Part shown: positions 1,751 through 37,556 of the stretch, one piece after another | Position numbering within the stretch: the first letter of the stretch is position 1 | Layout: every line of letters begins with the position of its first letter | Assembly (NCBI RefSeq): GCF_000517025.1 | Contig: NZ_KI912092.1 | Location: 88,724 to 152,723, forward strand | Reading direction: 5' to 3' | Length of the DNA stretch: 64,000 nt | Source of the DNA: Halonatronum saccharophilum DSM 13868 | GTDB lineage: Bacteria > Bacillota > Halanaerobiia > Halobacteroidales > Halobacteroidaceae | The notes under the pieces: generated by a model | What the model was told of the DNA's origin: nothing | Database searches by the model: none | Seen by the model: only the letters and a program-made list of their open reading frames with translations | Program-made: the position numbers and the translations under genes

Positions 1751-1890
1751 CGTACACCTCCATTCTAAAATTAATCTTTACATTAATTATGTTGGCCCAA
1801 TCTAGGATCTTTTAAACCTTAAATTCATATACTAATCTACGATAATATAAAACAAATTAAAATTACTTGCTAATGAATATCCTTAATAAT

Positions 1891-4800
1891 TTAACCTTCA
1901 ATATAATTATTTAAAATATTACAATACTCTGGATTTAGAAGGTCTTCTCCAGTATACTTAAACTTAACAAGAAATTCTGTTGTGAAGTAATTATTAGAAT
2001 TTCTTCTTAAATAATTATTTAATGCAAATAGCTCCTGATACAGATAGTCATTTTTTTTAGCAAGCCATTTACATAAGAAATTACATTTATCACCTTCACA
2101 TTTATCTTTACTAATTTTAATTTGAATTATTTCTTCTTCACTAGGTTTTAACTCATTTAAACAGACATATTTGCACTTTTGTGATTTTGTTTGTGTTAAT
2201 TGTTTAGCATTTATAAATATAGTTAATATAATTTTTTCCTTAATAGTCCCTGGTTTTAAATAGCTAACTTTATTTATTAAAAAATAAATGAATTTAATAT
2301 TTAAAAACAACAAATTAGAATTACAGTTTAATTTTAAATTAAACTTAATTAAAAATAAACTAATTATTAGATAGTAAATGTGACGATTTTCATATTTTGT
2401 CTCAATCTGATATTGATCTATCAATTCATGTGATATCCAATGAAATTTTGTTGCATCAGACATATAAGCTAAATTATTTTCTAATATTGCCAAGGTAATT
2501 CTATTCTTAGACATATCTAATAAATCAGCTACCCTTAACGCTACTTTAATATATTTCCTACTAACTAACGAATCTTTTGCTTCTGATTTAATACTATAAA
2601 TATCTGTAACTCCATAACCATGTGCCTCTGAAACTTCTGCTACTAATTCTCTGATACTACTTTGAACAAATTTCAAATCATTACTAGTTCTAATATGCTT
2701 AGCACTATTTTGAGAATGATTATTTCTTACATGCATCTCAAAAAATTCATCTAATTTTTGATAATATCTTACCAATAAATCTTTAACTTCTTTTTTATTA
2801 TCATATTCTACTTCTCTTTTAAATTCAGTGTATATCAAATTAGAATCAGAGTTAGAATTATTATTAAAAACACTCTTTAAATCTGGGTGAGAAACCATTG
2901 CTATATCATGTAAATAACAAGCTATAAACAAAATATAATAATCTATTTGCTTAATTGTAAAATAATCGATTGAATTTATAAATCTAACTGAATTTTTTAT
3001 TAAATCGGCCCCATGTTCCTGATTGTGCAATGTATAAAAATGTAAAAATTTTGACCCATTCTTCCACATCTCACTTGTATACCTATGTACTTCTATTAAA
3101 TTATCAATTAGCTTTGGCTTACTTACAAAACTATTGTAATAATCTATAACTTCAAATAACGTATAATCAATTGTATCTAAATCATTAATATCTATACCAG
3201 TAATATCATTCAAGAATTTATCAGTTTTAAAATTTCTATTCCTTAAATACACAAGTATCTTAAATTCTGAATAAGTTAATGGTTTATTGTCTAATTTTCC
3301 AATTTGAAGCTTATCATTTAAAACAACATTAAAAACCTTTGAAAAAATCGAATTTAGAACCATTCTATATAATTCTGAATCATTATTCACTACCCATTTG
3401 TAGCATTCTTTTAATTTTTCATCATTTTTTAAATTTTGATTACCCTCTAACTGTTCTTCATTCGATAAATATTTGTTGTAATTGTAAAAATTACAATCTA
3501 CACCATCTTCCATAAAAAATTTGATAATATTTTTAACATAATCTAATTTTCTTTCTTTATGTACCCCATTAACCCTAGGAAATACTATGTTAACTCTTTT
3601 TTCAATACTGTTATATTTATTAACTCTGAAATATTCACTTTCCTTAATATTAAATCTACTGCATACTTTAGAAAAGTATGCTATTTCTTTATAAGCTTCA
3701 TTATAAATCGATTGATCAAAATTATTTGTTTTATTTTTTATTTTTTTATAATAAATTTCAACCAAGCATTTTTCTTTTTTATCTTCTTTTTTATCTTCTT
3801 TAATATTCTTCAAATTTCTCAAATAAAATAAATATTCACTTGAAAATATATCTTCATCATAATGTTTAAAAAATTTCTCTATCTCCTTTTTATTCATCTT
3901 TTCAAGGAGATTATTAATATCTTTACTAGAAATTTGATTGTCTTCTCTATAACTCATTAACTTTCTTCTAAACTTAAAGAATTTCTTGAAGCGAACTAAA
4001 AGTTTTTTATGATTACTATTATCTTTCTTATCTATACGTTCAATTCTATCTGTCTCTTTTTCTACTGATTCTTCTAAAGTTTCGAATTTACTTTTTAAAC
4101 TAATATCCTCAATGTCTTCAAATGTTGACCATAACTGTCTTGCTCCAAGGGATGCTTGTCTACTAAGATATCTTAAATACTGTTCCCCATTATCATCTTC
4201 TTTAATTTCTGACAATTTACTTTTATTATTTGTATGAACTTCTATTTTATAATCAATATTTTTAGAAAAATTCTTTATTTCCTCTCTAAATTTGCAATCT
4301 GGTAATTTAAAACACTCTTCACTATTACCATTTCTAGATAATCTATCATTTAACTGTTGTAGTTTTCTATTTAAACTTTTTAGTTTATCTTTAAATTTTT
4401 CTTGTTCTTCTCTTAAATCTTTTGAGGAGTCAATATATATAACCGAGTCATCTACATAATAAAATGATCTACCATTAAATTCTTTTTCAAATTCTTTTGC
4501 TACTTCTATCATACAAATATTTCCCCAAAAATAAGCTTGGGGTAAACCTTGTACAATTCCAACAGAATAGTAATCACCATTGTCCTTTATGCTTTTATAC
4601 TCAGTAGATAAACTATAATATTCCTCTCTTGCATTTGAACAATTTTCTAAATTAATAACTTTAAAATATAATAGTTTATATAAAACAACCTTTAAACAAT
4701 CAAATTCTTCATCTGAAAACCTAATCGATAACTTTTCTAATACATATCTATAAATAATATATGGATTAATTGATGGAAAAAAGTTTTTTAAATCTAAAGT

Positions 4801-5367
4801 TACTTCATAGTTATATTCTCCAGTCTCTAAGTAATTAGAATAACTATTTGTTATATCTTTTGAATATCTTTTATACATTTTCTGCCACGGTTTAAATAAT
4901 GACTTTGCCTTTAACGAAGGAATATTACCATAAAAATTACTTGGAATTAATTTACTTAAATCTGATAAAACTAATTTGCCATTTTTTTCACTTTCAAGTT
5001 CATCAAAATCATATATAATAGGATTTAACATTGCTACTATAGCAATTTGAGTGTAAAGGTCACTTGTATGTAAGGGTCTTGATTCAACCTTTGCTTCACT
5101 TATATATTTTTTAGGTCTAAGAAAAACAGAAATTTCAAAAAGTTTATCCTTTAATATTACGTCATTTATTTTTTCTATGACTTTATTCATTACTTCATTA
5201 ATTTCTTCATAATTTAATTTATCCTTTAACTTACATAACTTTAAATAATCACCTTTATTTAATAAATCACGTTCAAATATATATGAATCAACTGAATATA
5301 TTGCCATATATAAATTTTTAGGATTAACAATATTTTTATACAGCTGATTTTCTTTTGTTATCTTCAT
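1891..5367 (-). CDS. Reverse transcriptase fused to an HD phosphohydrolase domain (candidate defence protein)
   Basis: About 1158 residues. Numbered from an upstream ATG at 5376, the reverse transcriptase core has motif A LDLKNFFPSI (Asp195), VQGLPQ (275-280) and the catalytic YVDD box (307-310). A Lys/Glu-rich linker runs from about 320 to 760. A C-terminal HD-type domain follows: LHNQEHG (His784, His788), YLHDIAM (His823-Asp824), EAHGYG (His919) and RVADLLD (Asp951). I prefer the ATG at 5367 because GAAGGG lies 10 nt upstream of it, whereas the ATG at 5376 almost touches that site. Base composition is markedly more AT-rich than the neighbours and the TTGGCCC heptamer is absent, suggesting transfer. 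It lies 23 nt after the small two-repeat gene. It fits the unknown-group/Abi-like reverse transcriptases broadly; I cannot assign a named type. Confidence 0.82.
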   Translation of the reverse strand: MKITKENQLYKNIVNPKNLYMAIYSVDSYIFERDLLNKGDYLKLCKLKDKLNYEEINEVMNKVIEKINDVILKDKLFEISVFLRPKKYISEAKVESRPLHTSDLYTQIAIVAMLNPIIYDFDELESEKNGKLVLSDLSKLIPSNFYGNIPSLKAKSLFKPWQKMYKRYSKDITNSYSNYLETGEYNYEVTLDLKNFFPSINPYIIYRYVLEKLSIRFSDEEFDCLKVVLYKLLYFKVINLENCSNAREEYYSLSTEYKSIKDNGDYYSVGIVQGLPQAYFWGNICMIEVAKEFEKEFNGRSFYYVDDSVIYIDSSKDLREEQEKFKDKLKSLNRKLQQLNDRLSRNGNSEECFKLPDCKFREEIKNFSKNIDYKIEVHTNNKSKLSEIKEDDNGEQYLRYLSRQASLGARQLWSTFEDIEDISLKSKFETLEESVEKETDRIERIDKKDNSNHKKLLVRFKKFFKFRRKLMSYREDNQISSKDINNLLEKMNKKEIEKFFKHYDEDIFSSEYLFYLRNLKNIKEDKKEDKKEKCLVEIYYKKIKNKTNNFDQSIYNEAYKEIAYFSKVCSRFNIKESEYFRVNKYNSIEKRVNIVFPRVNGVHKERKLDYVKNIIKFFMEDGVDCNFYNYNKYLSNEEQLEGNQNLKNDEKLKECYKWVVNNDSELYRMVLNSIFSKVFNVVLNDKLQIGKLDNKPLTYSEFKILVYLRNRNFKTDKFLNDITGIDINDLDTIDYTLFEVIDYYNSFVSKPKLIDNLIEVHRYTSEMWKNGSKFLHFYTLHNQEHGADLIKNSVRFINSIDYFTIKQIDYYILFIACYLHDIAMVSHPDLKSVFNNNSNSDSNLIYTEFKREVEYDNKKEVKDLLVRYYQKLDEFFEMHVRNNHSQNSAKHIRTSNDLKFVQSSIRELVAEVSEAHGYGVTDIYSIKSEAKDSLVSRKYIKVALRVADLLDMSKNRITLAILENNLAYMSDATKFHWISHELIDQYQIETKYENRHIYYLIISLFLIKFNLKLNCNSNLLFLNIKFIYFLINKVSYLKPGTIKEKIILTIFINAKQLTQTKSQKCKYVCLNELKPSEEEIIQIKISKDKCEGDKCNFLCKWLAKKNDYLYQELFALNNYLRRNSNNYFTTEFLVKFKYTGEDLLNPEYCNILNNYIEG

Positions 5368-5390
5368 CCTTTGCATTCCCTTCTGAAATC

Positions 5391-5660
5391 CTATTTTTTT
5401 AATTTTTCTTCATCTTTTTCATTTTTATCTTTGCTTAACTCTATCAATTCCTCGTATCTACTGTTATCATATTGAATAACTTCAACACAACTATTTTTTT
5501 CATCATTTACTTTATCAAAAACATCTATATTTCCTTCCAAATAATCACAATTAGAATCGTACTTCCATAAGTTATCAAATATTATTTCTATCCCCTTTAT
5601 ATTTTTCTCTTTTAACTCTTTAACTATTTTCTTAATAAAACTTCTCTTTCTAATTAATTA
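5391..5660 (-). pseudogene. Second repeat of the small partner protein, reached only by a +1 frameshift
   Basis: Read in the frame of 5651-5391, this encodes about 86 residues (RKRSFIKKIVKELKEK at its start) with no usable start codon. It matches the middle of the preceding protein (RKRNIIERMIEELKEQ). If one base at 5652 is skipped, the upstream frame runs straight into this one and gives EILRIINRKRSF, which aligns with ELLNIILRKRNI of the first repeat. The intact product would be a 247-residue two-repeat protein. The junction is AAT TAG A. Alternatives are a simple indel mutation, a sequencing error or programmed +1 shifting. Confidence 0.6.
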
Positions 5661-6135
5661 TTCTTAATATTTCTTCAAATTCTTTCTCTTCAAATTCTTT
5701 CAACGAAAACTTGTAATGGTTAGATGTTTTTTTATCATTATTAATTTGATAAATACATTCGATATAAATATTTCTCTTATCTTTCACTTTATAAAAATTG
5801 CCTTCACTAAATATTTCGATATCTCTTGAAGTAGAGTTATTTTTATATAAAAATAATTCATCTACTATTACTTCTTGTAAATTTTCAATTTTTTGTTCTT
5901 TTAACTCCTCTATCATTCTTTCAATAATATTTCTTTTTCTAAGTATTATGTTTAACAACTCTTCAAAATCTTCTATTGATTCATTTAAATAGCTTTCATT
6001 GTACTTATAATTTTGATTAGTATTAATTAAGTAAAAAGAAAATAATTTTATTATTTCTTTTGTTTTATCAAATTCATTAAATAACTCCAGTAAATTTTCT
6101 ACCTTTTGTTTAAACGCTTCCCCTCTATTACCCAT
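5650..6135 (-). CDS. Small helical partner of the reverse transcriptase, unknown function
   Basis: 161 residues, rich in Glu, Lys, Asn and Ile, with no recognised domain, signal peptide or membrane segment. It looks predominantly helical up to about residue 110, including a charged stretch around RKRNIIERMIEELKEQ. Its ATG has a strong AAAGGAGGAG site 11 nt upstream. It shares the low GC of the reverse transcriptase gene and is the first gene of that unit, behind a promoter near 6400. The last residues begin a second copy of the same repeat that continues out of frame (5391-5651). The position suggests a partner or regulator of the reverse transcriptase, but this is inference only. Confidence 0.7.
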   Translation of the reverse strand: MGNRGEAFKQKVENLLELFNEFDKTKEIIKLFSFYLINTNQNYKYNESYLNESIEDFEELLNIILRKRNIIERMIEELKEQKIENLQEVIVDELFLYKNNSTSRDIEIFSEGNFYKVKDKRNIYIECIYQINNDKKTSNHYKFSLKEFEEKEFEEILRIIN

Positions 6136-6384
6136 ATTTTATATTACTCCTCCTTTACCATTATAATCTAAAGTTTTCACTACTAACCATCATTTTTCCT
6201 GCTTATTTTTTATATAAATTGTATTTATTCTTTTACATTTGCTTTTTCAACAAAATACTACTATATAATTAATTGTTAATTTTCACATTCTAACTTAAAA
6301 TAAAAAATTGACAGAATAACTTTAATCTCAATTTTCTTAAGAACTTAAAACTAATCATTTGATATAGATAAATTATTGATTAAA
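6136..6384 (-). other. About 240-nt AT-rich leader of the reverse transcriptase unit
   Basis: Between the predicted transcription start (near 6378) and the ATG at 6135 there is no open frame of note. Reverse transcriptase defence loci often carry a templating or regulatory RNA in this position. I see no strong long hairpin, so a non-coding RNA here is only a possibility. The stretch 6415-6510 holds a degenerate copy of the dispersed repeat core (CTTGTCGGCACTTAT; compare 44586). Confidence 0.35.
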
Positions 6385-6414
6385 ATATTACTAACCTCTT
6401 TATATTCTTGTCAA
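6385..6414 (-). promoter_or_regulatory. Promoter of the reverse transcriptase unit
   Basis: On the minus strand, TTGACA (6414-6409), 18 bp, TAATAT (6390-6385). It is the only strong promoter seen between the transaminase terminator and the small partner gene, so the partner and the reverse transcriptase are probably one transcript. Confidence 0.6.
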
Positions 6415-6510
6415 GAACTTGTCGGCACTTATCCGAACTTGGTCTGCGTATATGCCTTTGACTTTAAATTTCTTGAAATTCAACTTCAAAATTATAGTTC
6501 CCTCAATAAC

Positions 6511-6546
6511 AAAAGAGAGTTAACTGTTAACAGTTAACTCTCTTTT
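6511..6546 (-). terminator. Palindromic terminator after the transaminase gene
   Basis: A 36-bp perfect palindrome with core GTTAACTGTTAACAGTTAAC, flanked by AAAA and TTTT, 4 bp past the transaminase stop codon. It can work in both directions and insulates the reverse transcriptase unit from its upstream neighbour. Confidence 0.8.
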
Positions 6547-6550
6547 TATC

Positions 6551-7408
6551 TTAAAAATTATCTGGATTACTTTTATACTCCCTATAAAGAACATTCAATT
6601 CTTTAGTAACATCTCCTACTACCCCATCACCTATCTTCTTTCCATCAACCTCTACAACACCCAAAACCTCTTTGGTTGTACTTGTAATGAAGACCTCATC
6701 AGCATTATATAGGTCTTCTAGTGAGAAAGGATCTTCAACAGCTGAAAACCTCTCTCTAGCTAATTCAAAGACTATCTCTCTGGTAATACCACTTAATATC
6801 TTATTGGTCACTGGATGGGTTATGATAACACCGTCTTTAACTATAAAGATATTACTACCAGTACCTTCTAATACAATATCATTATCAGAAATAAATATTC
6901 CTTCAAAGGCTCCCTTCTCGCTAGCCTCTTGGCTTGCTAGAATATTTGGAAGAAGGTTTATAGTCTTAATATTACAACATCCCCATCTGTTATCAACTAA
7001 AGTAACTACAGATACACCTTTCTCTCTAATCTCATTAGGTAGAGACTTAGGAGGTAATAGATACATAACCAAAGTCGGCTCTAAAGTATAAGAAAAGTTA
7101 TGATCTCTTGGGGCAACCCCTCTAGTTACCTGTATATAAAGACTTCCTGATTTGTTCTTATCACTTCTCTTTATAACCTCAAAAGCAATCTCCTTTAGAT
7201 CTTCAACGCTATAGTCTAAATTAATTCGAATTAATTCAGCACTATTAATTAACCTCTTAAAGTGTTCTTCACCCTTAAATAATATTCCATCATATAACTT
7301 TATAACCTCATAAACTCCATCACCAAATTGAAACCCTCTATCTTCTAATGAAATACTTGCCTTATCTAATTCAACAAAATCACCACTTATGTAAGCTATC
7401 TCTTTCAT
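6551..7408 (-). CDS. dat: D-amino acid transaminase (class IV PLP aminotransferase)
   Basis: 285 residues, the usual length for the D-alanine/branched-chain aminotransferase fold. SLEDRGFQFGDGVYEV (19-34) and VTRGVAPRDHNF (94-105) are typical of D-amino acid transaminases, and RWGCCNIKTI carries the PLP lysine (Lys148). It interconverts D-alanine and D-glutamate with 2-oxo acids to supply cell wall precursors. A branched-chain aminotransferase is the alternative, but VTRGVAPR favours Dat. It ends a unit with trmL and the STAS-like gene (gaps of 43 and 31 bp) and is closed by the terminator at 6511. Confidence 0.85.
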   Translation of the reverse strand: MKEIAYISGDFVELDKASISLEDRGFQFGDGVYEVIKLYDGILFKGEEHFKRLINSAELIRINLDYSVEDLKEIAFEVIKRSDKNKSGSLYIQVTRGVAPRDHNFSYTLEPTLVMYLLPPKSLPNEIREKGVSVVTLVDNRWGCCNIKTINLLPNILASQEASEKGAFEGIFISDNDIVLEGTGSNIFIVKDGVIITHPVTNKILSGITREIVFELARERFSAVEDPFSLEDLYNADEVFITSTTKEVLGVVEVDGKKIGDGVVGDVTKELNVLYREYKSNPDNF

Positions 7409-7451
7409 TATTGCCTCCTTATATTAATAATAGGATATGATTACTAAGTTC

Positions 7452-7910
7452 TTAAACTAGCCCTTTAAACCCAGTCTGTCTTAAGGCTTCATAGATTACT
7501 ATCGACACAGAATTTGCTAAGTTTAAAGACCGAGTACCTTCCTTCATTGGTATTCTAATACAGTTATCAGAATACTTCTTTAAAATATCCTCAGGGATGC
7601 CTGTAGTCTCCCTACCAAAGATAAAGAAGTCTCCTTCTTTGTACTCAACTTCGGTATGAAACTTCTCAGTGAAATTGGTCGCAAAATAAAAGTTACTTCC
7701 TTTATTCTTTTCAAAGAACTCTTCTAAGTTATCATAATAATAGATATCAAGGCTATCCCAATAGTCCAAACCTGCTCTCTTAACTGCTTTCTCATCAGTA
7801 GAAAAGCCTAAGGGCCTAATTAGATGCAGACTGGCACCGGTACAGGCACAAGTTCTCGCAATATTTCCTGTATTAGGTGGTATCTGTGGTTGAAATAATA
7901 CTATATTCAT
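7452..7910 (-). CDS. trmL: tRNA (cytidine/uridine-34-2'-O)-methyltransferase
   Basis: 152 residues, a full-length minimal SPOUT methyltransferase. The start MNIVLFQPQIPPNTGNIART is the family hallmark. FGRETTGIPEDIL (98-110) and the C-terminal IRIPM...RSLNLANSVSI form the trefoil-knot SAM site. It methylates the wobble ribose of tRNA-Leu isoacceptors. It sits between the transaminase and the STAS-like gene in a tight same-strand unit. Confidence 0.94.
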   Translation of the reverse strand: MNIVLFQPQIPPNTGNIARTCACTGASLHLIRPLGFSTDEKAVKRAGLDYWDSLDIYYYDNLEEFFEKNKGSNFYFATNFTEKFHTEVEYKEGDFFIFGRETTGIPEDILKKYSDNCIRIPMKEGTRSLNLANSVSIVIYEALRQTGFKGLV

Positions 7911-7941
7911 CTCTTCCTCCTCTTTTATTAAAATAAAATGA

Positions 7942-8286
7942 CTATCTAACTAGCCACTTCTTTCCTTCTTCTATTGTAATAAATTGTTCGATTTCTATAC
8001 AATCATCATACCTTCTCTTCCATAACCTAAATTTAAATTTGCTAATTAATTCTGGTAACACCAAAGCTACTTTAGAAAGATTAATCTTTGACATAGTTTT
8101 TATAAATATATCAAAATCACTATCTTCTAAGTTCACTCGCCGAAGATCCAAAAGAATTCTTTCCTTATGAGAATTTAGCTCAATCAATTCACCAACCTTC
8201 CTACAGATAGCTTTTCCTTCTTCACAATCTATTATATCACTTCCAGTGATAATTATAAAATTTTCTTCCCCCTTTAGTCTATACAT
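7942..8286 (-). CDS. STAS/SpoIIAA-like small protein
   Basis: About 114 residues. I start at the ATG at 8286 because AGGGAGGG precedes it; the longer frame would need TTG at 8304 and would translate the binding site itself. The pattern of strands and helices, with RILLDLRRVNLEDSDFD and an ending FITIEEGKKWL, resembles SpoIIAA-like/STAS proteins of the lipid-binding or anti-anti-sigma type. No phosphorylatable Ser motif is evident. First gene of the STAS-trmL-dat unit. Function unknown. Confidence 0.6.
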   Translation of the reverse strand: MYRLKGEENFIIITGSDIIDCEEGKAICRKVGELIELNSHKERILLDLRRVNLEDSDFDIFIKTMSKINLSKVALVLPELISKFKFRLWKRRYDDCIEIEQFITIEEGKKWLVR

Positions 8287-8354
8287 CTTTATCCCTCCCT
8301 TCAATACTTTTACCCCTATTATAGTATTAAAGGAAGAATAATTTCGTGCTAGGT

Positions 8355-8457
8355 AGTAATAAAATAAACTTTATTACTACAGCTGTCAGCCACCAGTCGT
8401 CAGCTAAGTTCAAAAACTTAAAATTCTTTAGCTGATAGGGCTGATGACTGATAGCTA
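8355..8457. repeat. Dispersed intergenic element abutting a stop codon
   Basis: Begins with a hairpin AGTAATAAA...TTTATTACT (8355-8378), then short tandem units (CAGCTGTCAGCCACCAGTCG), a core AAGTTCAAAAACTTAAAATT, and complementary units (GCTGATAGGGCTGATGACTG). The right edge is 1 bp from the stop codon of the DUF362 gene at 8459. Same architecture as 9418, 31845 and 41420, but with different arm sequence. Confidence 0.65.
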
Positions 8458-8458
8458 C

Positions 8459-9391
8459 TTAAGCTTTCCTCTCCAAATGAACCGGTAATATCTCGCTCTT
8501 ATCTAAGATTATCTTATACTCATAGGCAGCTAAGGAGAATTTCTCTTCTGCTTTATTAAGGGGCATCCCCTTTAACTCTACTTTACGTAGATCACCTTCT
8601 CCTATGTTTGCCCGAATTAAATTATGTAAATAGTGAACAGCCTGTTGACGAAATCCTAATAACCTTGCCCCAACCACATCAGTAGCTACTGGGTCAGTAC
8701 CTACTACTACTAAATTGGCGTCTACAGGCTTTCCTTTAGATGGACCTGTCCCTACCATTCCGTTATCTCCACTTAATATAGTCAAATCAATAGGTATCAA
8801 CTTACCCATCTCTGTGATGAATTCATGTAAATATTCATGAATTCCTAAGTTAGCTTTAGGAAAACCATGCAATTCTGCTGGGGGCCAAGCTAAGGCAATA
8901 TTTTTAATGCCTAAAGAGACAGTAGACTCTTCGTGGTGTTTAATTTGGGTATAAGAGATTATGCTATCACTCTCTGTTAATAACTTATTCAACTTTATCT
9001 TCTTAATTATAGGGTGGTCAATCTCAAACTCTTCATACGGGCCAAAGTTCAGATCAACAAAATCTACCCCTTCTTCATAGATAACCTTCTGGTATCCCGT
9101 CTTCTTCATTACCTCCTTATTATCTGCCCCACCAGATCCAGTAGCTATAACTATTCTACCAGGGTTCTTTCCTTTTACATATTTAATCAACTTCTGCAAT
9201 GATTGTGGGCCAACTACTGTGCCAGTCTCTGGGGCATTAGTATTTACCCAATTTGGTGTAATAGTAACGGTATCGCCACTAGATATTATCTCATCACTAG
9301 ATAGCATATCCAATAATCCACTAATCACATCCCCTTCTATCCCCTCACCAATTCCAACCTGTGGCTCATTAAACCTTCTCTTTCTAATCAT
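8459..9391 (-). CDS. DUF362 family protein without ferredoxin domain
   Basis: 310 residues. The start is the ATG at 9391, with CAGGAGGT nearby upstream; extending to 9430 would only translate the adjacent repeat hairpin. DUF362 features include ATGSGGADN, SYTQIKHHEESTVSLGIKN and the glycine-rich SGDNGMVGTGPSKGKP with VGTDPVATDVVGARLLG. DUF362 proteins often occur with iron-sulfur proteins, but the reaction is unknown. A second family member with two [4Fe-4S] sites is encoded at 10251, separated from this one by sodC. It sits between two copies of the dispersed element. Confidence 0.8.
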   Translation of the reverse strand: MIRKRRFNEPQVGIGEGIEGDVISGLLDMLSSDEIISSGDTVTITPNWVNTNAPETGTVVGPQSLQKLIKYVKGKNPGRIVIATGSGGADNKEVMKKTGYQKVIYEEGVDFVDLNFGPYEEFEIDHPIIKKIKLNKLLTESDSIISYTQIKHHEESTVSLGIKNIALAWPPAELHGFPKANLGIHEYLHEFITEMGKLIPIDLTILSGDNGMVGTGPSKGKPVDANLVVVGTDPVATDVVGARLLGFRQQAVHYLHNLIRANIGEGDLRKVELKGMPLNKAEEKFSLAAYEYKIILDKSEILPVHLERKA

Positions 9392-9417: not shown

Positions 9418-9588
9418 AGTAATAAAGCATAGCTTTATTACTGGTGATGAGTAATGGGTAAAACCTTAAGAAAACAGAAACCCCTTTGTTCCCTGAGACT
9501 TATAAGAGGTTTTGAGATTTTGACTTTACTCATTACTCTTAACTCATTACCCATTACTAGTGGCACGAAAGTGACACTTTATTACTAT
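9418..9588. repeat. Dispersed intergenic element, full-length copy
   Basis: Hairpin AGTAATAAAGC-ATA... with CTTTATTACT (9418-9442), tandem units GATGAGTAATGGGTAAAACC, a central region, and a complementary right arm built from ACTCATTACTCTTAACTCAT and CCATTACT. A second ACTTTATTACT-type end follows at about 9588. The central part, read in reverse complement, matches 31910-31955 (AAAGGGG/TTTCTG, TTAAGGTTTTAC). No reading frame. Confidence 0.75.
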
Positions 9589-31844: not shown

Positions 31845-32005
31845 AGTAATATAGTTGCACTTTGTGCAACTAGTAATCAGTGATGAGTGAAGAGTAATCA
31901 GTAAGGTCAAAATCTAAGAATAAAGGGTTTCTGGACTTTTAAGGTTTTACTCATTACCCATTACTGCTTACTCTTCACTAGTAATAAAGCTATGCTTTAT
32001 TACTA
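31845..32005. repeat. Dispersed intergenic element, inverted copy
   Basis: Left hairpin AGTAATATAGTTGCAC...GTGCAACTAGTAAT, tandem units (GATGAGTGAAGAGTAATCAG), a core homologous to the reverse complement of 9455-9530 (GTCAAAATCT, AAAGGGTTTCTG, TTAAGGTTTTAC), complementary units (CTCATTACCCATTACTGC), and an end hairpin AGTAATAAAGC/GCTTTATTACT (31980-32004). The remaining sequence from 31727 to 32083 contains only this and the pullulanase terminator. Confidence 0.75.
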
Positions 32006-32041
32006 GATATATGTATGTAAATAAAATAGTGCTCATAAAAA

Positions 32042-32068
32042 AACCAGGGCCAACAGTTGGCCCTGGTT
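32042..32068 (-). terminator. Pullulanase terminator built from the iterated heptamer
   Basis: AACCAGGGCCAAC and GTTGGCCCTGGTT form the stem, with seven T on the minus strand after it, 16 bp past the stop at 32084. The stem is an inverted pair of the TTGGCCC/GGGCCAA heptamer that recurs about 60 times in the window. Confidence 0.9.
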
Positions 32069-32083
32069 CAAATCAAAGTATAT

Positions 32084-35000
32084 TTAGTTAGCTTTTAGGA
32101 CTACAGGAGTTAATGGATCAAGAGTTATACTATTGCTAGTAACCTCTACGCCTGTAGGATTAGCTATCTCTTCAGTTCCAGCTTGAACAGCATCTACTAG
32201 AACTTGAGCTCCAGTTAGATCTACATCTATTCTAAGCTCTCTTTCGCTATCATCAGCATTGATGAAGATATAGTAAACTTCTCCATCTGTAGACTCAGTT
32301 CTATAACCAATTACTAAGTCTGTGTCTGCTATATCATCACTCTCAACCATTGATACATTTGATTCAACTAAGTCCATAGTTGCTAATCTAAAGGCATCAG
32401 TAGATCTTCTAAGAGCAACTAAACCTCTCAGATGCTTCATAGTCTCTCTGTGGATACCTTCTTCTCTCACCTTGGCCCAATCGAACATATTAATAGCATC
32501 TGTAGAATCATAAGAGTCATGGATGAAGTAAGGATAGTTAAATGGTTCTCCGTCTTCATCTACACCATAATGTGATTTATAAGGTGCTTCATCAGTCTCT
32601 GCTCTAAATTGCTTAGTACGACCATACTCTTGACCAGCATGAATAAATGCTGTACCTTGAGAAGTCAACACCATTGTATTTCCTAAACGAATACGCTTTT
32701 GAATTTCTTCTTGGTGATAGTCTGGATCTTTTTCAATCGAAATAGCAATAACATCGTGTAATGTCAAGTTATCATGTGCTTCGATATAAGGAACAACATC
32801 ACCTGGATGTGTAGCTGTAAAGTTATGTGGGTTGGCCCTTACATTATCAAAGATCTGTTGGATATCTCTTGCTCCACCAGTAATAAATCGTGGCTCACCT
32901 TCATGACCATATCCAGATTTTAACTCATTTCTGAAGTCATCAGAGAATACACCAACACTCTCTGTATGTTGCATCCAATCTTGATCAGCTGGCATAATAT
33001 CTCCACCATCTTCATCTCCTACGAAGGTTCTCCAGCCCTCTCCAATCATAACAATGTTCGGATTAATCTCTTTAGCTTTATCATAAGCTATCTGGATACT
33101 CTCTGCATCATGGTCACCCATCATATCAAAGCGGAATCCATCAACTTTAAATTCTTCTACCCAGTAAAGAATAGAATCAACAAGAATTCTTCTTGCCATT
33201 TCGTGTGTTGTTCCTAAACGTCCACCACCAAAACTTGTTCTAGAAGTACCATCAGCATCCATAAAGTGGTAGTAATTTGGTACTAAATCTTCAAAGATGT
33301 GTACTCTTGCAGTATGGTTATAAACAACATCTAATACAACCCCCATACCACGACTATGAATCTCGTCAATTAAATTCTTAAATTCTTCTACTCTTAACTC
33401 TGCATCATTTGGATCCTCAGAATACATACCAGTTATCGAGAAGTAACTATGCGGGTCATATCCCCAGTTATAGTTATTTCCACTAGCAGACCAATCCATC
33501 ATTCTTACATCGTTAGCTAATTCATCTCCCCAAAAATAACTCATAATTGGAAGAAGCTGAACGTGAGTTACTCCTAGATTTTCAATATAATCAAGCTTAT
33601 CAACAAGAGCTGCAAAAGTACCAAATTGAGCACTTAACTCATCTTCAATACTTGGATCAGATGTCAAGTCACGTACGTGAACCTCATAAATAATAGCATC
33701 TTCTCTTCTTTCAAACCCTTCAATCTCTGCAAAATCTAACTCCGGGCCAACAAAAGATGGATTCACAATAGCTGCTTTTCCAACTGGATAAGCCTTTGCA
33801 GGATCTTCAGGATTATTATTCCAAGCTGCCATTGAAGGCGCATATGGATCAAGAGCTAGCCTCTTATTACCATCTCTTTCGATTTCATAGTGGTAATAAT
33901 ACCCTGTTAAATCTGCTACACCAGTATTCTCTTCATCTAATCTTACTTCCCATACTCCTCTATCTCCTAAGTTCATATCTATATCATCAGCTACAACCTC
34001 ATATTGGTCATCTCTATCATATAAGATAACTCTTACATTATCTGCTCCAGGTGACCAAAGCTTTAGATTAGCTGTTCCATCTCTATGAAGTTCAACTCCC
34101 AGATCTCCATCATAAGCATATACTTCATCAATTAATCTCCAACCAGCTCTAACTGTAGCAGTTCGCTCATCAAAAGTAGCTATATATGGTGACATTTCAG
34201 TATCAAAATCACCTTGAACTGATACAACTTGCTCATCTACAATTACTACAAAGTCAAAGGAAACTTGATTTCCTTCTCTATCCTCTAGTACTAATCCTTC
34301 TTCTATCTCTTCTTCTGTTAACCCATCTGTAGTTGAGAATCTAAGCTCTATAGAATCAGATAGTACCTCTCCAGTCTCAATACCTGCTTCTGAAACATAA
34401 TAAGGGTTTGTATACACATTATCATCTCCAGCACGGAAGAACAACTGACTACTAGATAAGTTAGACACATTCATATCTGGAGTCTGCTCAGCTGTATCCA
34501 TATTTACTGCAAGGAAATTAATTTGTGTAGCATTATCTACTATCTCTATATCTACATAAGCGCCAAAGTCTCCTACTTGATCATCAGAGAAGTCTGTAGC
34601 TCCTGTAGGCCAATCTCCTACATTTTCAGAAGGAGTAACTACATCTCCCCAATTCCAAAGACCCCAATCCTCATAGCTATCAAGGTCATGCTTGTAGTGA
34701 ACTCTTACTACATTCTCTGGAAGATCAACTGGTTCATATAAGAATACCTCATACTCACCATTAGCTTCTTGAATCCAGATATCAGTCATATCAGCAGCTA
34801 ATATATCCACTCCCATATCTCCTGATAAATTTTCTCCACCACTCTCATTTACAAGAAAGCTAAGACTATCTGCACCTTCTGCTAACTTAACATCTACATA
34901 AGGGCCATAATCTGTACTTTGACTTTCGTCAAATGCAGTTGCACCATCTGGCCATTCATCTAACTCTTCTGAAAAAGTCTCAGCTCCATCCCATACCCAT

Positions 35001-35197
35001 AGACCTAAACCATCATAGTTTCTACCTTCTGTTTGAAAATGAACTCTTATCGAATCTGGAGACTCTCCTAAATCACTAATCTCCTCTGCCTCTTCAACAG
35101 GACTTGATGAAAAGGCTTCCGCATTAAGGTTAAACCCAAATGCCAAAAATAATACCATTAAAAATGTTACTGGTAATAGTATCTTACTTCTTCGCAT
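32084..35197 (-). CDS. pulA: Secreted pullulanase, type I (GH13), with two starch-binding modules
   Basis: 1037 residues. Signal peptide (LLPVTFLMVLFLAFGF, cut near AEA). Two tandem CBM41-like modules, about 49-155 (IRVHFQTEGRNYDGLGLWVW) and 163-265 (VRVHYKHDLDSYEDWGLWNW). An N2/CBM48-type domain lies around 365-455. The GH13 catalytic domain begins near 480: YNWGYDP (576-582), DVVYNHT (623-629), GFRFD with nucleophile Asp691, acid Glu720 (MIGEGW) and Asp809 (EAHDN). The YNWGYDP motif is diagnostic of pullulanase. It debranches alpha-1,6 links in pullulan, starch or glycogen outside the cell. The mature protein is rich in Asp and Glu, in keeping with a salty habitat. A promoter about 340 bp upstream gives a long leader. 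Confidence 0.95.
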   Translation of the reverse strand: MRRSKILLPVTFLMVLFLAFGFNLNAEAFSSSPVEEAEEISDLGESPDSIRVHFQTEGRNYDGLGLWVWDGAETFSEELDEWPDGATAFDESQSTDYGPYVDVKLAEGADSLSFLVNESGGENLSGDMGVDILAADMTDIWIQEANGEYEVFLYEPVDLPENVVRVHYKHDLDSYEDWGLWNWGDVVTPSENVGDWPTGATDFSDDQVGDFGAYVDIEIVDNATQINFLAVNMDTAEQTPDMNVSNLSSSQLFFRAGDDNVYTNPYYVSEAGIETGEVLSDSIELRFSTTDGLTEEEIEEGLVLEDREGNQVSFDFVVIVDEQVVSVQGDFDTEMSPYIATFDERTATVRAGWRLIDEVYAYDGDLGVELHRDGTANLKLWSPGADNVRVILYDRDDQYEVVADDIDMNLGDRGVWEVRLDEENTGVADLTGYYYHYEIERDGNKRLALDPYAPSMAAWNNNPEDPAKAYPVGKAAIVNPSFVGPELDFAEIEGFERREDAIIYEVHVRDLTSDPSIEDELSAQFGTFAALVDKLDYIENLGVTHVQLLPIMSYFWGDELANDVRMMDWSASGNNYNWGYDPHSYFSITGMYSEDPNDAELRVEEFKNLIDEIHSRGMGVVLDVVYNHTARVHIFEDLVPNYYHFMDADGTSRTSFGGGRLGTTHEMARRILVDSILYWVEEFKVDGFRFDMMGDHDAESIQIAYDKAKEINPNIVMIGEGWRTFVGDEDGGDIMPADQDWMQHTESVGVFSDDFRNELKSGYGHEGEPRFITGGARDIQQIFDNVRANPHNFTATHPGDVVPYIEAHDNLTLHDVIAISIEKDPDYHQEEIQKRIRLGNTMVLTSQGTAFIHAGQEYGRTKQFRAETDEAPYKSHYGVDEDGEPFNYPYFIHDSYDSTDAINMFDWAKVREEGIHRETMKHLRGLVALRRSTDAFRLATMDLVESNVSMVESDDIADTDLVIGYRTESTDGEVYYIFINADDSERELRIDVDLTGAQVLVDAVQAGTEEIANPTGVEVTSNSITLDPLTPVVLKAN

Positions 35198-35687: not shown

Positions 35688-37556
35688 TTATAACTTGAAT
35701 TCCTTAATCAGATCTTGTAACTTCTGTGCCATTACAGTCAACTCCTGTGAAGAATGACTTATTTCATAAGACATACCCTTGATATCATTAGTTGCACTTG
35801 CTACATCTTCGCTATTTTGGGCCAACTCATTAGAAGACTTAGCAGTCTCTTCAACCTGAGCAGCAGTAGCTTTAATAGACTCTTCAATCTCCTCAAATAC
35901 TTCTCCTGTTCTTTGAACAATCTCCTTACCTTCTACCACCATCTCTTCAGCCTTTCTTACTGCATCTATTCCTTCTTTAGATCTTTTTTGGGTCTCCTTA
36001 ACCAAAGTACCAATATCATCTGTTGCTTTAGCCGTCTCTTCAGCAAGCTCTCTAATTTCATCAGCTACAACTGCAAAACCTCTACCGTGTTCTCCAGCCC
36101 TAGCTGCTTCAATTGCTGCATTTAAAGCCAAAAGATTTGTCTGCTCTGCTATATTAGTAATTAGATCAACTATCTTCCCAATCTCTTCAGAATTGCTATC
36201 TAATTTAGCAATTACCTCTACTGTCTCGTTAACAGAGATATTAATAGTTTCAATACTTTTAATTGTATCACTAATATTACTGCTACCTAAATTAACTTGA
36301 GAATTAGCTTCTTGAGAAAAAGATGCTACCTCTTGAGAGCTTACGGAGATCTCTTCAATTCCTGCTGACATATCCTCAATTAAATAATTACTCTCCTCTA
36401 TTGTTGCATTACCTTCCTCTGCTGATGCAGATAACTCTTCACTATAAGCTAACAAATTCTCAATATTCTCTATTAAATTATTTATCATCTCATTAAGGTT
36501 TTTATTCATTCGAGCAAAAGATTTGGCTAAAATCCCAAATTCGTCACCCCTACCCATTAACTTAGCATCTATATCTTGAGATAGATCCTTTTGGGCAATA
36601 CTTTCACTATAACCTGTCAATATCTTCAGTGGATTACTTATATATCTCCCAAGCCAGACTCCAACACCAATTAAAACTACTAAAGCAATAGCTAACATAG
36701 TAATTAAAACTGTTCTAACTTGATTTATTGGCCCATAAACATAATCTCTTGGAACCCTAGTTAATAGTTTCCAACCATCTGTACCTTCTATTTCTTCAAA
36801 GTAAACATAGGTATTAACCCCTTCAAAACTATAGTTAACACTACCAGAACTATTGGATAATATATCCCCTGAAACCTCTTTAATACCAACTATATTATTT
36901 ATATTCTCTTCAATTATAAAATCAGAATCAGGATGGGAAATAATCTGACCATCACCACTTACAATAAAGGAGTAGGACTCTTTATGGTCTACTCGGATAT
37001 CGCTGATAAAATCATTTAAGTTATTTAAATTTACTGTAGAGCCCATAAGGCCTATAACTTCCCCACTCTCCTCTATAGGAGTAGCAAATACTGCAATAGG
37101 ATTGCCTGTAGACATTGAAACCAAAGGCTCAGAGATTATTGTCTCACCTGCCATAACCCTTGGAAAATAGTCTCTCCCACTTATATTACCATCATTACCA
37201 CCTGTAGCCCGATAGTCTCCAATTTTATCTGCTACAAATAAAACCTCGAATATATCTTCATACCTACTATGTCTATCCCTTAAAAAAGCTTCACTTTGAC
37301 TCCACTCCATACTCTTGATGAAGGGCATAGCTGCATAATTCTTCATCTCATTCTTTCTCTCTTCAAGCCAACTCTCTAAAAAACCTGAATTCCTCTCTAC
37401 AACTTCCATTATATTAGTATCAATTAAACTAAACACCCTTGTCCTTACAACATTACTAGAAATCAATGTAATCAAACCAAAGACTACTATGGAAACTGAT
37501 ACTAAAGTCAATATTATTTTATCACCTATACTTTTTCCAATATTTTTCTTAAACAT
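35688..37556 (-). CDS. Methyl-accepting chemotaxis protein with double Cache domain
   Basis: 622 residues. TM1 (about 14-34), periplasmic dCache domain (about 36-275; [18 protein letters not shown] and [21 protein letters not shown] are typical ligand-pocket segments), TM2 (about 283-303), HAMP (304-357) and a signalling domain with the conserved tip [20 protein letters not shown] followed by [15 protein letters not shown]. The ligand is unknown. The C-terminal half is nearly the same as in the receptors at 50967 and 52795. No CheW-binding pentapeptide methylation tether is visible at the C-terminus (ends IKEFKL). Confidence 0.94.

Follow-up and report, generated by a model that had tools for sequence, protein, structure and literature searches.

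The stretch of DNA analysed here, called the window, comprises 64,000 nucleotides of contig NZ_KI912092.1 of Halonatronum saccharophilum DSM 13868. At positions 32042-32068 it contains a perfect 27-base palindrome, AACCAGGGCCAACAGTTGGCCCTGGTT, just beyond the end of a pullulanase gene, with GGGCCAAC set opposite GTTGGCCC. Both arms belong to the word GGGCCAA(C), a non-palindromic DNA tag spread over the genome in one family, the Halobacteroidaceae, and the leading explanation for it is a role as an uptake-type tag. The features concerned are the following.

32042 to 32068, minus strand: predicted intrinsic terminator stem-loop of the pullulanase gene, with a 12-bp perfect stem, a 3-nt loop and facing GGGCCAAC/GTTGGCCC arms (sequence and fold)
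32037 to 32043, minus strand: run of seven T (seven A on the plus strand), two bases of which overlap the stem and pair in it (sequence)
32047 to 32054, plus strand: GGGCCAAC copy forming one stem arm (word search)
32056 to 32063, minus strand: GGGCCAAC copy forming the opposite stem arm (word search)
32084 to 35197, minus strand: pullulanase open reading frame (ORF) of 1,037 amino acids with PUD, CBM_48, alpha-amylase and SpuA_C domains (domain matches), ended by the hairpin
1792 to 63706, both strands: 61 copies of GGGCCAA, 34 of them followed by C (word search)

The anatomy of the 32042-32068 element is that of an ordinary Rho-independent terminator, and termination at this site is predicted. 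Like other intrinsic terminators, it combines a G+C-rich stem-loop with a T run and lies just 3' of a stop codon, 15 bases separating the hairpin from that of the pullulanase gene. The fold energy of the minus strand between 32030 and 32080 was -23.9 kcal/mol, compared with a mean of -9.6 for dinucleotide shuffles (z = -6.1), and none of 200 shuffles was as good. The predicted fold has 13 pairs, including one G-U pair, as against the 12 bp of the perfect stem. The element differs from intrinsic terminators by carrying the iterated word, and no other distinction was found. An earlier note on this DNA had described a stem of facing GGGCCAAC and GTTGGCCC followed by seven T after the pullulanase gene, and the hairpin corresponds exactly to that description.

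A short repeat around GAGTGAAGAGTAATC was also observed beside the terminator (31885-31899 and 31966-31980) and elsewhere in the window (36430-36444 and 9531-9545), one copy being inverted. These four matches, allowing at most two mismatches, compare with 0.27 expected.

Copy number and conservation of GGGCCAA

The octamer GGGCCAAC occurs 34 times in the window, where 0.36 copies are expected. The 2.88-Mb genome holding the window, hereafter G000, contains 1,096 copies (554 and 542 by strand), as against three copies of the word read backwards. The repeated unit is a heptamer, GGGCCAA, and half of its G000 copies continue with C as the eighth base. A sample of 820,348 bases, or 28% of the genome, contained 611 heptamers (about 0.75 copies per kb), whereas a Markov model of order 2, built with the motif masked, predicted 35; extrapolation from the sample gives about 2,150 copies genome-wide. 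The word is also frequent in four related genomes, G001, G002, G004 and G006. C follows the heptamer in 50% of copies in G000, 55% in G004 and 46% in G006, and in G002 the four bases are about equally used (27% C, 26% G).

When synonymous codons were resampled with the proteins kept the same, 41.8 heptamers were expected in the ORFs of an enlarged G000 sample (1,018,125 bases, ORFs called mechanically), where 686 were observed, an excess of about 16-fold. The corresponding figures were 349 against 17.3 in G004, 291 against 15.1 in G002 and 71 against 4.2 in G006. As the excess is measured over codon resampling of identical proteins, the cause of the abundance lies at the DNA level, and a cause at the level of codons or peptides was rejected.

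Words with one mismatch to the heptamer gave a result that depended on the null model. Under the masked Markov model, 850 were found in G000 against 847 expected (ratio 1.00), and the ratios in the four other enriched genomes were 0.84-1.12. The codon null with perfect sites masked, run for G000, G004 and G002, gave 826 against 694, 357 against 332 and 333 against 273, respectively (ratios of 1.19, 1.07 and 1.22), while one-mismatch forms of the reversed word gave 0.75-0.89. The view that such words are not enriched at all, which the Markov null had suggested, was therefore abandoned in favour of the 7-22% excess seen with the codon null. A mild excess is likely, and it is weaker than described for Haemophilus and Neisseria. 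An apparent excess of GGCCCAA (105 against 21) was mostly due to overlap with perfect sites (TTGGGCCAA), since 33 against 19 remained after masking.

Two further words were recorded during these counts. ACTGACAC was found 45 times in the G000 sample against 4.6 expected and may belong to a dispersed repeat. In G004, GGWCC words are few, as if avoided: GGACC occurs 36 times in 360 kb, compared with 263 times in 820 kb of G000 and 135 times in 460 kb of G002.

The fate of individual copies was followed in orthologous genes, defined as reciprocal best hits with more than 45% identity and more than 70% coverage between mechanically called ORFs, among which some errors are likely. G000 and G004 shared 105 such genes, with 67% protein identity and 55% codon identity at same-residue positions (45% of codons changed). 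Among 113 G000 sites, 42 were exact heptamers in G004, three were one base off and 68 two or more off; in the other direction, 42 of 99 G004 sites were exact in G000 and six were one base off. Where the protein was unchanged, 34 of 49 sites were exact, compared with 26% of control 7-mers and 15% of GC-rich controls (p = 3e-10). The same comparison gave 17 of 31 exact sites for G000 and G002 (control 28%, p = 0.002) and 11 of 14 for G004 and G002 (control 31%). The values for G000/G006 (4 of 8) and G004/G006 (13 of 18, p = 0.10) were not significant against all control 7-mers; in the latter, the closest pair, 14 of 25 sites were exact and five were one base off. Single GGGCCAA copies stay at their sites to a clearly greater degree than ordinary synonymous change would allow.

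Placement of the word and facing pairs

About 90% of the sampled heptamers (550 of 611) lie inside ORFs, which represent 80.6% of the bases. Their spacing is random, with a coefficient of variation of 1.04 against 1.03 in simulation. Gaps longer than 5 kb number 13, compared with 11.5 under random placement; since they are no commoner than that, there are no clear motif-free islands. Two families of repeated ORFs, transposase-like as judged by eye (17 ORFs, 8,913 bases, only two independent sequences), contain no heptamer against 7.4 at the ORF average, and all 51 multi-copy ORFs together contain 17 against 31.5.

At 1792-8882 lies the window's longest stretch without a heptamer, and it spans reverse-transcriptase genes. 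One of them (1891-5376, minus strand) encodes a 1,161-amino-acid reverse transcriptase with an HD-CE domain, which matches the PADLOC model RT_UG24 (defence-associated reverse transcriptase, DRT) over nearly its full length; a scan of genome contigs with the reverse transcriptase of the window gave six relatives at 33-36% identity. It is adjoined by an RTas1299-type match at 5650-6135 (minus strand).

No bias between leading and lagging strands was detected, either in the sampled parts of G002, a single-contig genome (169 against 150, p = 0.31), or in G000, where strands were assigned by local GC skew (393 against 356). Within G000 ORFs there is a slight sense-strand excess (377 against 309, p = 0.01). 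This orientation disfavours a strand signal of the Chi or FtsK-orienting polar sequence (KOPS) type. Chi sites are short, non-palindromic and frequent, which speaks for a Chi-like recombination signal read by AddAB; GGGCCAA differs from them in its lack of replication-strand bias and in a distribution that does not follow AddA. AddA-like frames of 900-1,220 amino acids that score 260-380 bits occur in the unenriched G003, G005, G008, G010 and G012 as well as in the enriched G000, G001 and G004, whereas the enriched G006 has no such match (its best frames reach about 740 amino acids) and the enriched G002 has only a weak one; in none of the 13 genomes did a match reach the model cut-off. Because of the missing strand bias and of an AddA distribution that does not coincide with enrichment, a Chi-like role is very unlikely.

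The pullulanase terminator had been taken, by analogy with Neisseria and Haemophilus, as a hint that the heptamer is an uptake signal, with a genome-wide count of inverted pairs as the proposed check. That count does not bear the hint out. Facing pairs of the form GGGCCAA N0-20 TTGGCCC are found at 10 places in the genome, compared with 8.4 if about 2,148 heptamer copies, an extrapolated number, are placed at random (P of at least 10 = 0.33), and the opposite arrangement with a spacer of 0-20 at four places against 8.4. Facing octamers with a spacer of 0-14 occur at four places against 1.6 (P of at least 4 = 0.07). Two of these (C5:11429 and C7:231) are the same sequence, beside a run of duplicated ORFs near contig starts, and P of at least 3 is 0.21 when the duplicate is counted once. 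In the first 12 kb of contigs C5 and C7 (L054 and L068), the near-identical ORF run with its motif hairpin represents either a duplication or an unresolved repeat.

At 829 ORF ends, covering about 35% of the genome, a simple purpose-written hairpin finder called 123 T-tailed hairpins. Five of them overlap a heptamer, and two, including the pullulanase terminator, carry two facing copies. A rough calculation from the density of 0.75 copies per kb, with about 350 hairpins of this type in the whole genome, yields one or two motif hairpins by coincidence; once the word lies in one arm of a hairpin, its complement is necessarily in the other. One facing heptamer pair was also found in the unenriched relative G009. 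The rows considered from Table 3 in Kingsford 2007 (PMC1852404), taken apart from the table legend, have 17-57% in the last column (U/R) for uptake-sequence terminators.

Facing pairs and motif hairpins thus occur at the level predicted by the density of the word, and an uptake signal cannot be argued from terminators. The idea that terminators make a special, selected use of the word, as in Neisseria and Haemophilus, could draw on the four perfect octamer places, but the whole-genome count of heptamer pairs speaks against any general use of this kind, as does the rarity of facing copies among the sampled hairpins, and such a use is hardly credible here. The pullulanase terminator is a coincidence of two common things, terminators and the iterated word.

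Distribution among relatives

The octamer was searched in 61 genomes, eight of which are Halobacteroidaceae. GGGCCAA(C) is frequent in five of these eight, which represent four genera, and is near background in a fifth genus, g4. The octamer counts were 209 in G001, 482 in G002, 1,059 in G004 and 708 in G006. The three g4 genomes have 23 (G003), 10 and 7 copies, the reversed control occurring once or twice per genome, and members of the sister family f2 have 8-31 copies with 6-17 of the control; the octamer thus exceeds the control in part of these genomes. The highest count elsewhere was 122, in G014 (reversed control 64). With a Markov expectation, scaled up from small samples, of about 12-16 octamers per g4 or f2 genome, G003 and two f2 genomes (30 and 31 copies) may show a slight excess. 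In 60-kb samples, G003 and G005 (g4) and G009 and G010 (f2) each contained one heptamer, compared with about two expected. The 2,157 bases obtained from G007 were left out of the word counts.

In a ComEC tree, g4 is the sister of G000 (support 0.995) and, with f2 taken as outgroup, falls among the enriched lineages; one gain followed by loss in g4 is therefore the simplest history. This history is drawn from ComEC alone, the pilus-gene trees being partly in conflict (PilB groups G004 with G010), and a concatenated tree was left out because the PilT row for G010 was wrong, being its PilB.

The distribution also bears on a mechanism like that of the highly iterated palindrome HIP1, in which the word would accumulate through the action of a DNA methyltransferase coupled to biased mismatch repair. 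HIP1 (GCGATCGC), an octamer of cyanobacteria, resembles GGGCCAA(C) in being highly iterated and lineage-wide with exceptions; it is, however, palindromic and accompanied by methyltransferases, whereas GGGCCAA(C) is not palindromic and is not tracked by any of the four methyltransferase families searched (PF00145, PF01555, PF02384 and PF07669; Dam-type and other enzymes were not searched). PF00145 has no match in the enriched G002 and G004, and PF01555 none in the enriched G001, G002, G004 and G006. Matches to PF02384 and PF07669 occur in each of the 13 genomes regardless of enrichment, and G004, the densest genome in the samples, has one weak match to each (frames of 292 and 253 amino acids, respectively). 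A HIP-type mechanism through these four families is unlikely, and HIP1-like maintenance as a whole appears improbable.

The strongest rival is an intracellular chromosome-organising or repair protein (a nucleoid, condensation or repair factor) that binds GGGCCAA, the copies being kept by weak selection. The uniform random spacing, the coding location, the presence in both orientations and the site conservation would all fit such a binding site; competence would not be required, and the low g4 counts could reflect loss of the factor. To our knowledge, however, a word of this kind in about 2,000 exact copies has no precedent among chromosome-organising sites, and no candidate protein is at hand, none having been looked for. 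This explanation is rather unlikely.

GGGCCAA(C) as a possible uptake-type tag

The genes that DNA uptake would need are present in G000. Its pilus operon includes genes for PilB, PilT, PilC, several pilins, PilM, PilO and a secretin, and a ComEA-like gene (SLBB and helix-hairpin-helix) directly precedes ComEC; a secretin is present in G002 and G004 as well. As judged from their sequences, the pilus, ComEA and ComEC genes would permit an uptake function in G000. PMC5007114 reports the Halanaerobiales as diderm, with PilQ in all Negativicutes and Halanaerobiales examined. Matches to ComEC and to a PilB-type ATPase were obtained in all 13 genomes, and a PilT-type match was missing in G010. Within the G000 pilus operon (contig C5, L169:6684-8560), pilT and the intact pilC are separated by an OrfB/TnpB gene of the IS605 type and a partial additional copy of pilC.

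GGGCCAA has much in common with the DNA uptake sequence of Neisseriaceae (DUS, GCCGTCTGAA) and the uptake signal sequence of Pasteurellaceae (USS, AAGTGCGGT). It too is a short, non-palindromic word with at least 1,000 copies, on the order of one to two thousand, in both orientations and without chromosomal orientation or replication bias. Conservation at orthologous sites is high in all three systems and, for GGGCCAA, holds in the G000/G004, G000/G002 and G004/G002 comparisons. Each word is shared by related genera with a small difference, which for GGGCCAA is the eighth base, and the carriers possess outer-membrane type IV pilus and ComEA/ComEC genes; type IV pilus, secretin, ComEA and ComEC genes, found in G000, are present in unenriched relatives as well. 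The Neisseria DUS reaches about 1,900 copies per 2.2 Mb (PMC2397512, Table 1), a density of the same order as that of GGGCCAA. GGGCCAA differs from DUS and USS in its shorter core (7-8 bases), in its chance level of terminator use and in its diderm Firmicutes host, and its role in uptake is a proposed one.

Maintenance as an uptake-type tag is the leading explanation for GGGCCAA(C), with a rough probability of 0.45. Although the argument from terminators fell away, the idea of an uptake-type signal is favoured by copy number, orientation, orthologous-site conservation and the pilus, ComEA and ComEC genes. Whatever keeps the tag would read double-stranded DNA irrespective of its orientation. 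Uptake would proceed by way of the type IV pilus, the outer-membrane secretin, ComEA and ComEC; fragments with GGGCCAA would be preferred by a DNA receptor at the surface or in the periplasm, and recombination with tagged fragments would keep and spread the copies.

Several observations weigh against this explanation. The inverted-pair excess habitual for DUS and USS is absent from the whole genome (10 against 8.4), compared with 396-500 composite DUS per Neisseria genome in PMC2397512. Enrichment in non-coding DNA, another habit of these sequences, is likewise absent: 61 of 611 heptamers lie outside ORFs against 19.4% of bases (raw counts, G+C being lower outside ORFs), and the 90% inside ORFs contrasts with 34-42% of DUS in genes in the same source. 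There is no bias to gene ends either (100 of 601 G000 sites in the terminal deciles against 120 expected), unlike the Pasteurellaceae sequences, for which such a bias is reported. One-mismatch words are at most slightly over-represented. ComEC and pilus genes are also carried by the unenriched genus g4 and family f2, so that the machinery does not explain which genomes have the tag, and no minor pilin specific to the enriched genomes was seen, by eye, among the several minor pilins of the pilus operons. In the enriched G006 (L195, contig C56), the matches to pilB and pilT are broken up into short frames, which may reflect a damaged operon or a poor assembly. Finally, nothing on competence, uptake sequences or the word itself in this group was found in the literature searched.

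Because inverted pairs and a non-coding preference are lacking, GGGCCAA is not filed as a DNA uptake sequence, but it may still work like one. We know of no family other than Neisseriaceae and Pasteurellaceae with an established uptake sequence, and the uptake-sequence literature sampled concerns these two. An independent origin of GGGCCAA(C) as a DNA uptake sequence in a lineage of diderm Firmicutes, outside the two known proteobacterial families, with loss in one genus, is conceivable and has somewhat less than an even chance.

Even if the word is not an uptake tag, a heptamer of about 2,000 copies that is kept while 45% of same-residue codons have changed needs explaining. The general question at stake is whether pilus-driven uptake across an outer membrane gives rise to such tags as a rule. 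Halophilic diderm Firmicutes, in which a non-palindromic tag reaches a similar density while one related genus stays near background, offer a natural comparison. An uptake sequence of independent origin in this lineage would suggest that DNA self-recognition accompanies outer-membrane, pilus-based uptake wherever that architecture occurs.
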